From: Henriciella algicola
GTDB taxonomy: Bacteria; Pseudomonadota; Alphaproteobacteria; Caulobacterales; Hyphomonadaceae
NCBI RefSeq assembly: GCF_003576245.1
Contig: NZ_QWGA01000007.1
Coordinates: 1-64,000, forward strand
Length of the DNA: 64,000 bases
Direction of reading: 5' to 3'
This document shows positions 3,443-51,303 of this stretch, in pieces (positions within the stretch are counted from its first letter, which is position 1; each line of letters opens with the position of its first letter). Under the pieces are notes generated by a model that was given only the letters and a program-made list of their open reading frames with translations, ran no database searches and was not told the DNA's origin. A program made the translations under genes and the position numbers.

Positions 3443-5614
3443 ATGCTGAAGAGACAGAAATCAATGCTCGTGGCCGGCGCGTCGGTGCTGGCCTTGGCAC
3501 CAGTCGCAATGGCGCAGGATGAAGCTGGCGACGAAGCGCGGCTCGACACGGTGATCGTCACCGGTGAAGCCTCGCAGGTTGAGCTGCTGGAGGCATTTGA
3601 AGGTGGGCAGGTCGCACGCGGTGGCCGCGCCGGTCTTCTTGGCAATCTCGACTTCCTCGACGCTCCCTTCGCAGGGACCGCTTACACCTCGGATCTGGTA
3701 ACGGCGCAGCAGGCTGACAGCGTCGGCGACGTGCTGCAGAACGACCCGGTCGTGCGCATCGCCAAGGGCTTTGGCAACTTCCAGGAAGTCTACGTCATCC
3801 GCGGCTTCCCGGTCTATTCAGACGACGTCACGCTAAACGGTGTGTACGGCATCCTGCCGCGCCAGTTCGTGGCGGCAGAACTGTTGGAGCGCGTTGAGGT
3901 CTTTCGCGGTGCAAATGCCTTCATCAATGGCGCGGCCCCGGGTGGCAGCGGCGTTGGCGGCACCATCAACCTCGTGCCAAAGCGTGCGCCAGACGAGGGC
4001 ATCCGCCGTGTAACGGTCGGCTATGAGAATAATGGTCAGGCCTATGGCGCCGTTGATCTTGGCACGCGCTTCGGCCCGATGGGTGAGTGGGGCGTGCGCG
4101 TGAACGGCGTGCTGCGCGACGGCGAAACCTCCGTTGATGGTCAGGACCGCTCGCTGGGCGTCGCATCCATTGGCACGGACTATGATGGCGAACGCTTCCG
4201 CTTCTCTGCAGATTTTGGCTATCAGGATAACCGCATCGACGCGCCGCGCCCCCAGGTGACACCGCTTGGCGCTATCCCGAACGAGCCTGACGCAGACAGC
4301 AATTTCGCACAATCCTGGACGTATACGGACGAAGAACAGATCTTTGGCGTTGTTCGCGGTGAATACGACCTCACCGACAATGTCACGCTTTGGCTCGGCG
4401 GCGGCGCGCGAAACGGCGAAGAGGCCAACGTGCTCGCCAATCCGAGCGCAGCGGCGGACGGCTCCCTGACCGCCTATCGCTTTGATAATACGCGTGAGGA
4501 TGATGTGGTCTCGTTCGATGGCGGCCTTCGCGCCGAATTCGAGACGGGCCCAATCGAACACCGCCTCGTTGTCTCGGCGTCGACCATTTCCTCGGAATCG
4601 AAGAATGCCTACGCCTTTTCGAACTTTGCGGGCTTCGCCACCGACCTTTATAACCCTGTCGATGTAACACCCCCGGCGGCAAATTTCTTCATTGGCGGCG
4701 ACCTCAATGATCCGCTTGTCACGGAAGAAGTCGACAACCAGTCATTTGCAATTGCCGACACCTTGTCGCTCTTTGATGACCGGCTGCTCGCAACGATCGG
4801 CCTGCGCCAGCAGAAGATCGAAACGGCGACGTTCGACTACAATACCGGTGCCCGCCTCTCAGGCTATGAGGATGAGAAGGTGACGCCCGCACTTGGTCTT
4901 GTCTGGAAAGCCAGCCCTAACCTCTCTTTCTATGGCAACTATGCTGAGAGCCTTCAGCCCGGCCAGATTGCGCCAGCCACAAGTGGCGGGACGCCAATCC
5001 TGAATGCGGGCGAAGTGCTTGAGCCTTTCACTGGCGAGCAATTGGAGGTCGGCGCAAAATACGATGCTGGCAATTACGGCGCGACCGTCTCGGTCTTCCA
5101 GCTCAGCCGTCCGAACGCAATCGTCGCCAATCAGCGTTTCACCGCATCAGGTGAGCAGGAGAATTCCGGCGTTGAGTTCAGCATCTTTGGCGAACCTGTC
5201 GAGGGCCTGCGTGTCATCGGTGGGGCAACTTTCATCGATGCAGAACTCTCTCGCACCCAAGGCGGTGTGGACGAGGGCAATACGCCTATTGGTGTCCCGG
5301 AAATTCAGGCGAACCTGAATGCTGAATGGGACGTCGCCGCGTTGCCGGGCCTCACGCTTGATGGCCGTGTTGTCCATACGGGCGATCAGTATGTGAACAC
5401 TGCAAATACGGTGGAGCTCGATGGCTGGACGCGTCTCGATATCGGTGCACGCTACACCACGGAATTTGCAGCCCGGCCTGTGACGCTCCGTGCACGGATC
5501 GAGAATGTGACCGATGAGGCCTATTGGGCATCTGCGGGCGGCTTTCCGGGGGCGAATTACCTTATCCTCGGCAATCCCCGCACGCTTATGCTGTCGGCTT
5601 CGGTGGACTTCTAG
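3443..5614 (+). CDS. TonB-dependent siderophore receptor
   Basis: A 723-residue outer-membrane receptor, probably for ferric siderophores, energised by TonB. The signal peptide ends near AMAQD. A TonB-box-like segment DTVIVTGEA follows, then a plug domain (GDVLQNDPVVRIAKG, EVYVIRGF, ERVEVFRGANAFINGA, GVGGTINLVPKRA) and a long beta-barrel with repeated aromatic and acidic strands. The C-terminus ends in phenylalanine (SASVDF), the usual signal for outer-membrane insertion. It is followed after 17 bases by a PepSY membrane protein, a frequent partner in iron-uptake operons. The actual ligand cannot be read from sequence. A Fur-like site lies upstream. Confidence 0.92.
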   Translation: MLKRQKSMLVAGASVLALAPVAMAQDEAGDEARLDTVIVTGEASQVELLEAFEGGQVARGGRAGLLGNLDFLDAPFAGTAYTSDLVTAQQADSVGDVLQNDPVVRIAKGFGNFQEVYVIRGFPVYSDDVTLNGVYGILPRQFVAAELLERVEVFRGANAFINGAAPGGSGVGGTINLVPKRAPDEGIRRVTVGYENNGQAYGAVDLGTRFGPMGEWGVRVNGVLRDGETSVDGQDRSLGVASIGTDYDGERFRFSADFGYQDNRIDAPRPQVTPLGAIPNEPDADSNFAQSWTYTDEEQIFGVVRGEYDLTDNVTLWLGGGARNGEEANVLANPSAAADGSLTAYRFDNTREDDVVSFDGGLRAEFETGPIEHRLVVSASTISSESKNAYAFSNFAGFATDLYNPVDVTPPAANFFIGGDLNDPLVTEEVDNQSFAIADTLSLFDDRLLATIGLRQQKIETATFDYNTGARLSGYEDEKVTPALGLVWKASPNLSFYGNYAESLQPGQIAPATSGGTPILNAGEVLEPFTGEQLEVGAKYDAGNYGATVSVFQLSRPNAIVANQRFTASGEQENSGVEFSIFGEPVEGLRVIGGATFIDAELSRTQGGVDEGNTPIGVPEIQANLNAEWDVAALPGLTLDGRVVHTGDQYVNTANTVELDGWTRLDIGARYTTEFAARPVTLRARIENVTDEAYWASAGGFPGANYLILGNPRTLMLSASVDF

Positions 5615-48913: not shown

Positions 48914-49438
48914 TCAAGGTTGCTCGGCTGCAGGGCTGCGTGCGAGCTCCGGCGCGCTTTCGGCGACATAGTCCGCGCCGCTCTCCAGAAGGGAGTAGGA
49001 TTGGGCCGTGCGGATCCATTCCGGGATGCGGTCCTGGTCGAGCGCCATGCGCAGGAGAAAGACAAAGAATACAAGGATGACCGCGCCGCGGATGAAGCCG
49101 AAGGCTGCGCCCGTGATCCGGTCGAGAAAGCCGATGCCTTCAACGCCCTGAATGGATCGCGAAAGGTTTGCGCCGAACCAAGCCACGATGACGTAGACCA
49201 GCAGGAAGAAAGCCAGAAACAGGATCAGGCTGGGCAGATAGGCCGGTGTGTCCTGCGGCAGGAAGCGGGCGAACGCGGCATGAAGGTATTTGTTGGCGTA
49301 GTAGGCCGCTGCCAGCGCGGCGATGAATGCGCCAAGCGTCGCAAGCTCTCTCATGAAGCCGCGCGCAAACGCCATCAGCGTGGACAGGATCAGGAGAACG
49401 ACCACGATGGCGTCGAAGGCTGTAATGGCGTCCATCAT
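48914..49438 (-). CDS. cvpA: CvpA-family membrane protein
   Basis: A 174-residue inner-membrane protein with four helices (residues about 8-24, 33-48, 68-88 and 108-127). FDAIVVVLLILSTLMAFARGFMRELATLGAF is the CvpA signature. CvpA is needed for colicin V production in E. coli and is often next to purF, as here. It overlaps radA by four bases, so radA-cvpA-purF is one operon. Confidence 0.9.
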   Translation of the reverse strand: MMDAITAFDAIVVVLLILSTLMAFARGFMRELATLGAFIAALAAAYYANKYLHAAFARFLPQDTPAYLPSLILFLAFFLLVYVIVAWFGANLSRSIQGVEGIGFLDRITGAAFGFIRGAVILVFFVFLLRMALDQDRIPEWIRTAQSYSLLESGADYVAESAPELARSPAAEQP

Positions 49439-50811
49439 GGCTCTGGGTCCGGACCTATTAAATCTACCAGATCAGATAGGCGCGATAGAGGCTTCACGGT
49501 CAACCCTTCAAACGATCCGGTGCTGCCTTCGGGGACGAATGCATTCCTGAAACCAAGGCGCTGCGCTTCTTTCAGGCGCTGGTCCATTCGGGCGACGGGA
49601 CGGATGGCGCCGGAGAGGGCGACTTCGCCGAAGAAAACAGATTTTTCTGGCGGTGGCCGGTCCGCCAGCGAAGTGAGAAGGGCGGCGGCGGCGGCGAGGT
49701 CGCCTGCAGGTTCTGCCATACGATAGCCGCCTGCAACCGAAAGATAGACGTCGCGGCCAGCCAGAGAGACGCCGCAGCGCGCTTCGAGCACGGCAAGGAC
49801 CATTGCGAGGCGGTTGGCGTCCCAGCCGACGATGCTGCGCCTTGGCGTGCCATAGGCGGAGGCGGCGACCAGCGCCTGTACTTCGGCAAGGACGGGGCGC
49901 GAGCCTTCCATGGCGGCGAAGACGGCTGTGCCGCCAGATGTCTCATCTTCGTTTGACAGGAAGAGGGCCGATGGCTCTCGCGCAGGGGCGAGGCCGTACT
50001 GGTGCATTTCGAAGATGCCGATTTCATCTGTGGGGCCGAAACGGTTCTTCACGGCGCGGAGGATACGAAACTGGTGGCCGCGCTCGCCTTCGAAATAGAA
50101 GACGGTGTCGACCATGTGCTCGACGACGCGGGGGCCTGCGATCTGGCCTTCCTTGGTTACGTGGCCGACGAGGATGAGCGCGGCGCCGGACTTCTTGGCC
50201 CAACGCGTCAGCTCCTGCGCGCAGGCGCGGACCTGAGCAACAGAGCCGGGAGCTGCTTCGAGGCTATCGGACCACATGGTCTGGATGGAGTCGATGACGA
50301 CAAAGTCCGGATTGGCAGACTTGAGCGCGGACATGACTTTGCGAAGATCTGTTTCGGTCGCGAGTTCAACCGGGCTCTCGGAGACTTTGAGCCTCCGGGC
50401 GCGGTCCTGTATCTGGGCGGCGGCTTCCTCGCCTGAGACATAGACGGTGGACAGGCCGTTGCGGGCGAGCCGTGCAGCGACCTGAAGGAGAAGCGTGGAC
50501 TTGCCGATGCCGGGATCACCGCCAATCAGCGTGGCAGAGGAGGGCACAACGCCGCCACCAAACACTCGGTCCAGCTCATCGACGCCGATCATGTGCCGGG
50601 TAGGTGCGTCCTCGACAGCGTTCAGCGTGGTGAACTCCGCCTTTCCGGCCTTGCGGGAAGATGACTTCGGCGCAGCCAGACCCCCGGGCGCCGCCGAAGA
50701 GGTCTCCTCCACAAGTGTATTCCACTCCCCGCAGGCATCGCAGCGCCCTGACCATTTCAGATGGACGGCGCCGCAGGACTGACAGGTGAAGACGGTGTTC
50801 GCTTTGGCCAT
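49435..50811 (-). CDS. radA: DNA repair protein RadA
   Basis: RadA is a RecA-like ATPase and branch-migrating helicase in recombination. The 458-residue protein begins with the zinc finger CQSCGAVHLKWSGRCDACGEW, followed by Walker A GGDPGIGKSTLLLQ, VDSIQTMWSD, the RadA-specific KNRFG motif and a Lon-protease-like C-terminal domain. It starts the radA-cvpA-purF operon and is divergent from urcA across a region holding two tandem palindromes. Confidence 0.96.
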   Translation of the reverse strand: MAKANTVFTCQSCGAVHLKWSGRCDACGEWNTLVEETSSAAPGGLAAPKSSSRKAGKAEFTTLNAVEDAPTRHMIGVDELDRVFGGGVVPSSATLIGGDPGIGKSTLLLQVAARLARNGLSTVYVSGEEAAAQIQDRARRLKVSESPVELATETDLRKVMSALKSANPDFVVIDSIQTMWSDSLEAAPGSVAQVRACAQELTRWAKKSGAALILVGHVTKEGQIAGPRVVEHMVDTVFYFEGERGHQFRILRAVKNRFGPTDEIGIFEMHQYGLAPAREPSALFLSNEDETSGGTAVFAAMEGSRPVLAEVQALVAASAYGTPRRSIVGWDANRLAMVLAVLEARCGVSLAGRDVYLSVAGGYRMAEPAGDLAAAAALLTSLADRPPPEKSVFFGEVALSGAIRPVARMDQRLKEAQRLGFRNAFVPEGSTGSFEGLTVKPLSRLSDLVDLIGPDPEP

Positions 50812-50871
50812 GGCGATGAGACGTAAACTGTTGCTCCGTGTGGGTGAAGCGGGTTTTGCGGACTTGTTTCA

Positions 50872-50908
50872 TATCGAATTACGATAATTTAATTATCGAA
50901 AAACAATA
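50872..50908. promoter_or_regulatory. Tandem palindromes TATCG-N5-CRATA, 22 bases apart
   Basis: The first copy (50872-50886) is TATCG-AATTA-CGATA and the second (50894-50908) TATCG-AAAAA-CAATA. Their centres are 22 bases apart, about two helical turns, so two dimers would bind one face of the DNA. Between and across them is a perfect CGATAATT-T-AATTATCG palindrome. The site stands 66 bases before the urcA start and 61 before the radA start on the other strand. Confidence 0.65.
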
Positions 50909-50973
50909 ATTATGGTAAGACGGAGTCGCTCAGGAACAGGGTCAATAACAAGAAAAGAGAAGGACCCATAATA

Positions 50974-51303
50974 ATGAAAAAGAAGAGCGTTATCACCGCA
51001 ATCGCCCTCACCGTCTGTGCAGGTTTCGCTGCACCAGCTTTCGCCGGTAGCACACAGCCCGCGAACTCTGTCGAAGCAGACATCACCGGCCTTGATCTGA
51101 CGACCCCTGAAGGCCGCGCAAAAGTGGAAAGCCGCATCGAACGCGCAGCCGAACATGCCTGTCTTGCTCGCAGCGGCCCGCAGCCACTGTCGTACCAGCG
51201 TGCCACGGCCATCTGCGTCGATGCCGCGGTGAAGGATGCGATGGGCCGGGTTTTCCCGAAAGCCGAACGTGTCGCAGAAGCCAAAACGACATCTGAAGGC
51301 TAA
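50974..51303 (+). CDS. UrcA-family exported protein
   Basis: A 109-residue protein with a Sec signal peptide (MKKKSVITAIALTVCAGFAAPAFA). The mature part VEADITGLDLTTPEGRAKVESRIERAAEHAC...YQRATAICVDAAVKDAMGRV matches the UrcA family of alphaproteobacterial proteins, with its conserved two cysteines probably forming a disulphide. Function is unknown. The tandem palindromes upstream suggest repression, and a hairpin terminator follows. AGAGAAGG lies before the ATG. Confidence 0.9.
   Translation: MKKKSVITAIALTVCAGFAAPAFAGSTQPANSVEADITGLDLTTPEGRAKVESRIERAAEHACLARSGPQPLSYQRATAICVDAAVKDAMGRVFPKAERVAEAKTTSEG

Follow-up and report, generated by a model that had tools for sequence, protein, structure and literature searches.

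The locus analysed here raises the question of which regulator, if any, reads two palindromes located between the divergently oriented genes radA and urcA of Henriciella algicola. The whole stretch of 64,000 nucleotides under analysis, referred to as the window, carries radA at positions 49435 to 50811 on the minus strand, recognised from its translated sequence rather than by a family search, and urcA at positions 50974 to 51303 on the plus strand, which encodes a UrcA-family protein of 109 amino acids with a signal-peptide-like start. The palindromes, considered here as candidate repressor operators without strand, occupy exactly positions 50872 to 50886 (operator 1, TATCGAATTACGATA) and 50894 to 50908 (operator 2, TATCGAAAAACAATA). 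The preliminary description had reported them as two TATCG-N5-CRATA palindromes 22 bases apart in an AT-rich gap, and both points were confirmed: the start-to-start distance is 22, and the G+C content is 19% at positions 50865 to 50912 versus 60.5% over the window. The sequence TATCGNNNNNCRATA is found three times in the 64 kb when strands are counted, against an expectation of 0.10 from shuffled sequences, in which the largest number was two and none of 100 shuffles gave three copies. The two palindromes are the only perfect matches to TATYG-N5-CRATA within the window, and four further places match with one mismatch.

A third dyad of 17 bp, CGATAATTTAATTATCG, overlaps both palindromes at positions 50882 to 50898. 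We rejected it as an operator: the organism's own genome has no other copy at up to one mismatch, and its 12 strand matches at up to three mismatches compare with 6 in the backward control; in addition, one inner base of the arm is altered in three of the seven urcA loci with paired sites (L022, L023, and L025). Since it has no second copy and its arm base is variable, we regard it as a by-product of two adjoining sites.

The pattern TATYG-N5-CRATA is a non-random, genome-wide signal. A search of the complete genome, proposed in the preliminary description together with a listing of the genes behind each match, gave 17 places compared with 4 for the backward pattern; 14 of the 17 are located before or between genes, two are inside genes, and one lies over the start codon of an LRAT-like gene. 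In a sample of 29 genomes of the genus, 277 sites with an A/T spacer were found, compared with 5 for the backward pattern. A random scatter with no preference for intergenic regions or for urcA genes, which would have spoken against the motif, is thus not what we observed, as the analysis of the urcA loci further indicates.

The urcA product matches the UrcA family model TIGR04433 with 59.4 bits (curated cut-off of 25); no Pfam family was found for it at an E-value of 0.001, and no PDB relative of the mature protein at an E-value of 1. Homologues were present in 26 of the 61 genomes searched, and 22 of these 26 loci have a perfect site in the 300 bases ahead of the gene, compared with none for the backward pattern; with one mismatch allowed, the numbers are 23 and 2. 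When the family model was used instead, 26 of the 27 genus genomes with a match had a site before their best urcA-family gene and none had the backward pattern there (26 and 2 with one mismatch). The remaining genome, G014, has just a weaker member of the family, without a site. In G012, the UrcA-family match is below the cut-off and contains an internal stop, and the three secondary urcA paralogues that were fetched (L298 to L300) have no site. A radA-like cysteine motif (loose pattern C..CGA) is encoded upstream, on the opposite strand, in 23 of the 26 promoters. Regarding the number of sites, a single one stands before many of the urcA genes in the genus; the pair at 22 bp is present in 7 of the 26 loci, namely the window and six relatives, and the remaining loci carry either a single site or two that are 20 apart. 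The position of operator 2 is the one common to most urcA promoters of the genus.

That the motif would lead to a regulator, as the preliminary description had anticipated, is supported, and a repressor could be assigned from the sites that stand before its own operon. The site at C2:149190 of the own genome precedes a DUF2975 gene followed by a gene for an HTH_26 protein of 86 amino acids (type A). A second HTH_26 repressor of 81 amino acids (type B) is encoded on the same contig (G000:C2, positions 4408 to 4650 of locus L117) in one operon with another DUF2975 gene. Both proteins exceed the HTH_26 cut-off of 22, with 74.5 bits for type B and 73.1 bits for type A, and are 48% identical over 63 residues; the DUF2975 genes lie directly upstream in the same direction and score 39.7 bits (type B) and 33 bits (type A) against a cut-off of 27. 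The operator of the type-A operon is perfect, and that of the type-B operon has one mismatch. All 13 type-A loci have a perfect TATYG-N5-CRATA, in which the half-sites are kept and the spacer varies (backward control: none perfect, 4 of 13 with one mismatch). The sequence TATCGTTWAACGGTA, one base off the pattern, is present in the own type-B locus and in 16 of the 17 type-B loci fetched from a total of 27 matches, the seventeenth being cut by a contig end; the backward pattern, with one mismatch allowed, is present in none of the 17. Since 13 genomes with type B only keep the sites, type B is favoured over type A as the repressor acting on the urcA sites.

All 26 genus genomes with at least 8 sites carry an HTH_26 repressor, and the three with 0, 1, and 2 sites do not (Fisher p of 2.7e-4), a co-occurrence that is weak by itself because the same three genomes are also the three of at most 2.5 Mb. 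One of the three, G023, has three sites before urcA, two perfect and one with a mismatch, and no repressor match, in an assembly that is 90% complete and divided into 340 contigs.

The association between motif and repressor extends well beyond the genus. Relatives of the repressor were retrieved with two peptide patterns drawn from its recognition region; the best 80 of 574 were taken, which favours close kin, and one without upstream sequence was dropped. Among the resulting 79, which come from named genomes, a perfect site lies within 1500 bases upstream in 64 and a site with one mismatch in 73, whereas the backward pattern gave 1 and 9; the remaining 6 have no site even at one mismatch. 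For relatives outside the Alphaproteobacteria, as judged by title, 30 of 36 have a perfect site, a count that includes L120, which shares 91% identity with the query and may be misbinned. The flanking T and the A/T-rich spacer of these sites resemble those of the genus, even though they are outside the search pattern. Of the open reading frames directly upstream of the repressor, 58 of 79 match DUF2975 at an E-value of at most 0.01. The recognition region is almost invariant in 40 aligned sequences, an invariance that partly reflects the retrieval of the loci with patterns from that very region; the alignments behind the models included 40 and 36 of the 80 loci.

Loci of the class reached by way of DUF2975 have a perfect site in 10 of 20 cases (9 of 18 when the own genome is left aside), with none for the backward pattern, and 13 versus 2 with one mismatch. 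In 142 genomes of the class, sites were found in 13 of the 18 with DUF2975 (1 in the control) and in 33 of the 124 without it, a number equal to that of the control; the association gives a Fisher p of 2.5e-4, or 5.7e-4 without the own genome. The highest count among these genomes other than our own is 4 (G110, with 2 in the control), so that around ten sites per genome look special to the genus or its near kin. On the evidence of these sequence comparisons, the link between motif and repressor is ancient. They also bear on the idea that some other regulator binds the motif at urcA and at the DUF2975 operons, with the HTH_26 protein having its targets elsewhere. It is general knowledge that several HTH families bind similar AT-rich dyads; however, the motif is tied to the HTH_26/DUF2975 operon over loci of many phyla and, in the class, exceeds the control only where DUF2975 is present, which makes this explanation quite improbable.

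The palindromes are very probably operators for a dimer of the type-B repressor, an XRE protein of the HTH_26/YozG type co-operonic with DUF2975. From what is generally known of XRE repressors, one dimer would fit a dyad of 15 bp with 10 bp between half-sites. A structural model of a protein 97% identical to the repressor, from the Henriciella locus L118 (pLDDT of 85), has an XRE fold with strands at both ends, and in PDB it matched Stl (a phage-island regulator), VanUG, and CylR2 best. The model of the DUF2975 protein (pLDDT of 91) consists of four long helices, the first two of which are separated by a small pair of strands, and a structure search with it gave no match at an E-value below 0.001.

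VanUG and the CylR1/CylR2 pair, both from Enterococcus faecalis, are the nearest characterised systems. VanUG, encoded in the vanG operon, has an HTH_26-like sequence, as does the repressor described here; its structure 3tyr is the sole sequence match in PDB at an E-value of 0.01 (phmmer E-value of 2.9e-4) and aligns with the repressor model with a Foldseek E-value of 1.6e-4 and a TM-score of 0.74. VanUG represses its own transcription through two adjacent imperfect palindromes with a footprint overlapping the -35 element, and competes with the activator VanRG (PMC4405338). VanUG is encoded with a two-component system, whereas the repressor here is located beside DUF2975, and the regulated genes differ. 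An identity with VanU itself is not supported, at 27.3 bits against the equivalog cut-off of 150 (NF000090), but the comparison supports a repressor that works like VanUG. In a bee-symbiont paper, a protein of the YozG COG is labelled with PDB 3TYR (PMC9239279). CylR2, a small XRE repressor, is accompanied by CylR1, a suspected membrane protein needed for induction (PMC3709268). The fold of CylR2 agrees with our model with TM-scores of 0.83 to 0.87 at 18 to 20% identity, while CylR1, with three predicted helices in the same review (PMC3709268), is set apart by this description from the four long helices of the DUF2975 model.

DUF2975 was also present in the controls B. subtilis and Caulobacter vibrioides, and the YozG/YoaS pair of B. 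subtilis is presumably of this kind, with a small XRE protein of the same type paired with DUF2975. In a Streptomyces cluster, an HTH gene is listed after one for DUF2975 (PMC7827011), and the YozG branch of XRE proteins was called barely characterized in a 2025 paper (PMC12376442). Searches of the literature for DUF2975, YozG, YoaS, HTH_26, and spelled-out forms of the motif returned, in the excerpts available, no description of such an operator.

How the sites could act on urcA is suggested by the layout of its promoter. In the 26 aligned urcA promoters, a TA-containing -10 candidate was read by eye a few bases past the last operator, and in the window it corresponds to TATGGT at positions 50911 to 50916 on the plus strand, which we infer to be the urcA -10 element; a strict -10 is not visible in the consensus of the 26. 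Because this candidate follows the last operator by only a few bases, the -35 region would lie beneath a bound dimer. The preliminary description had also proposed that the two dimers sit on the same face of the DNA and bind cooperatively. The spacing of 22 bp stood, and the cooperative binding would be one possibility, two helical turns being one of several layouts: neighbouring perfect sites before repressor genes, at spacings up to 80, are 16-17 (12 cases), 21-22 (4), 29-31 (10), 40 (3), 43-47 (11), or 65-66 (7) apart. Cooperation of two dimers on one face is possible.

The box TACANNTGTA, which we take to be of the BlaI/CopY type, is present in nine of the 26 urcA loci, 25 to 28 nt ahead of the last operator in eight of them and 45 nt in the other (L040); its carriers, always upstream of urcA, are L028, L030, L033, L034, L039 to L042, and L045. 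As an explanation of the palindromes it was rejected, as it is absent from the window. In the clade of the window, the second operator occupies the region where relatives have TACANNTGTA. The own genome has a BlaI/CopY-like gene (L050, positions 181 to 540) about 5 kb from the site beside the DUF2807 gene.

The regulation of urcA is not the blank that the preliminary description implied, an account that was incomplete. In Caulobacter, uranium induces urcA through the two-component system UzcRS, and UzcR sites have the form CATTAC-N6-TTAA (PMC8963506); UzcRS thus also controls a urcA gene, but by means of a response regulator at a different sequence, and apparently in response to a different input. 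An activator system of this type could own the sites, with the palindromes being incidental, and the promoters offer something in its favour: 11 of the 26 urcA loci have the form [AC]ATTAC-N6-TTAA at a fixed distance of 17 nt ahead of the last operator, in four of them in the canonical version. The window has AATTAC-N6-TTAA at positions 50877 to 50892 on the plus strand, one base off the UzcR half-site pair and overlapping operator 1, in place of the canonical pattern of the UzcR regulon, which is missing from this promoter. However, the canonical pattern is absent from the own genome (backward controls 4 and 1), the ATTAC part also belongs to palindrome 1 in 7 of the 11 loci, and the sites before other genes and before the DUF2975 operons would be left unexplained, so that we consider this reading unlikely. 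The overlap between operator 1 and AATTAC-N6-TTAA would allow a competition between activator and repressor as in VanRG/VanUG, which is only a suggestion because the canonical UzcR pattern lacks a copy in this genome.

With the type-B repressor as the reader of the palindromes, the following model can be proposed, in which binding, repression, and signal are inferred. Operator 2 would take in both the -35 region and the spacer of the urcA promoter, so that the repressor dimer blocks RNA polymerase, and operator 1 would overlap the possible activator site; the repressor would also shut down its own operon. A disturbance of the envelope, sensed through DUF2975, may free the repressor, the sensor role being assigned because of the shared operon and the parallel with CylR1/CylR2. 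Its release would raise UrcA together with a PspB-like protein, DUF2807, an efflux outer-membrane protein, GPP34, and a candidate small RNA.

These companions were identified by reading the neighbours of sites, among the matches listed, in G000, G002, G009, G011, G013, G016, G019, and part of G021, with genes called by a simple ORF heuristic and some neighbours by eye. In all 8 genomes, urcA is preceded by sites, and another site stands between genes for a PhoR-like kinase and an outer-membrane efflux protein. The PspB-like gene is behind a site in 7 of 8. In 6 of 8, two sites 23 apart are flanked by genes for a DUF2807 protein and a small lipoprotein, and a site before GPP34 was likewise found in 6; a FAD-dependent gene is near a site in 6, with a seventh (G009) recognised by its neighbours only. 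The sites on the argD side precede the candidate small RNA in 5 of 8, and 18 of the 63 site loci that were read have neighbours outside the recurrent groups. The target at C2:24263 is PspB-like only, below both the Pfam (22.3 against 25.6) and NCBIfam (25.9 against 51.7) cut-offs for PspB. From their family names, most of the named targets would act at or near the envelope. The proposal supplies a widespread family of regulators with a candidate DNA target, none having been found in the literature searched, together with autoregulation and a membrane partner. It would give UrcA a set of co-regulated envelope genes and a candidate regulator, turning the statement that its function is unknown into a testable question on a shared envelope-stress response.

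The candidate small RNA near argD (L057, about positions 4605 to 4718 on the plus strand, G000:C8; also in L226, L247, L253, and L268) is conserved in the five genomes aligned and has a terminator and a long hairpin whose CCCTGACGCCCTGACCCTGA loop is invariant. It lies behind one perfect operator and one with one mismatch, with two more at two mismatches. No Rfam match was found for it, and Rfam searches of ten site loci gave two tRNAs only. A complement of 8 to 9 bases to the urcA leaders is statistically weak: of 200 singly shuffled leaders, the observed energy was reached by 6 in G000, 22 in G011, 17 in G002, 12 in G016, and 65 in G013. A wider scheme is more doubtful than not, and we put it forward tentatively: TATYG-N5-CRATA may be the near-universal operator of the DUF2975/HTH_26 module, with a regulon of about ten sites in the genus and a small RNA whose CCCTGACGCCCTGACCCTGA loop pairs with the urcA leader. 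If so, a pan-bacterial module kept across phyla would have grown into an envelope-stress regulon in a Henriciella-like genus, and the same switch would control urcA twice, at the promoter and through the small RNA.

Some sites have surroundings of their own. The one before osmC (about positions 1487 to 1515 of L011, G000:C5:314363) lies beside the dyad ATTGTGCACAAT and a weakly PadR-like gene, and perhaps reflects OhrR-type control with a chance match to the motif. PadR genes are generally known to adjoin genes of such sort, but that a PadR-type repressor controls the sites as a whole is scarcely credible, given that the own genome has no PadR protein above the curated cut-off and only this one weaker match near C5:314363. 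A perfect site at G000:C5:945072 precedes the gene for a protein of 141 amino acids (positions 1054 to 1476 of L013, minus strand), which is also found in two other genomes that were read (L222 and L261) and has no Pfam or NCBIfam match. At G000:C5:409334 (positions 5176 to 5402 of L055), an operator and a CTACAAATGTAG dyad are located between a gene for D-Ala-D-Ala ligase and one resembling a TonB-receptor gene. Finally, a protein of 339 amino acids with a signal-peptide-like start, encoded at positions 961 to 1977 of L049 on the plus strand (G000:C2), matches the UrcA family in its C-terminal part with 27.7 bits against the cut-off of 25, and its gene lies about 2.3 kb before the operator of the PspB-like gene.
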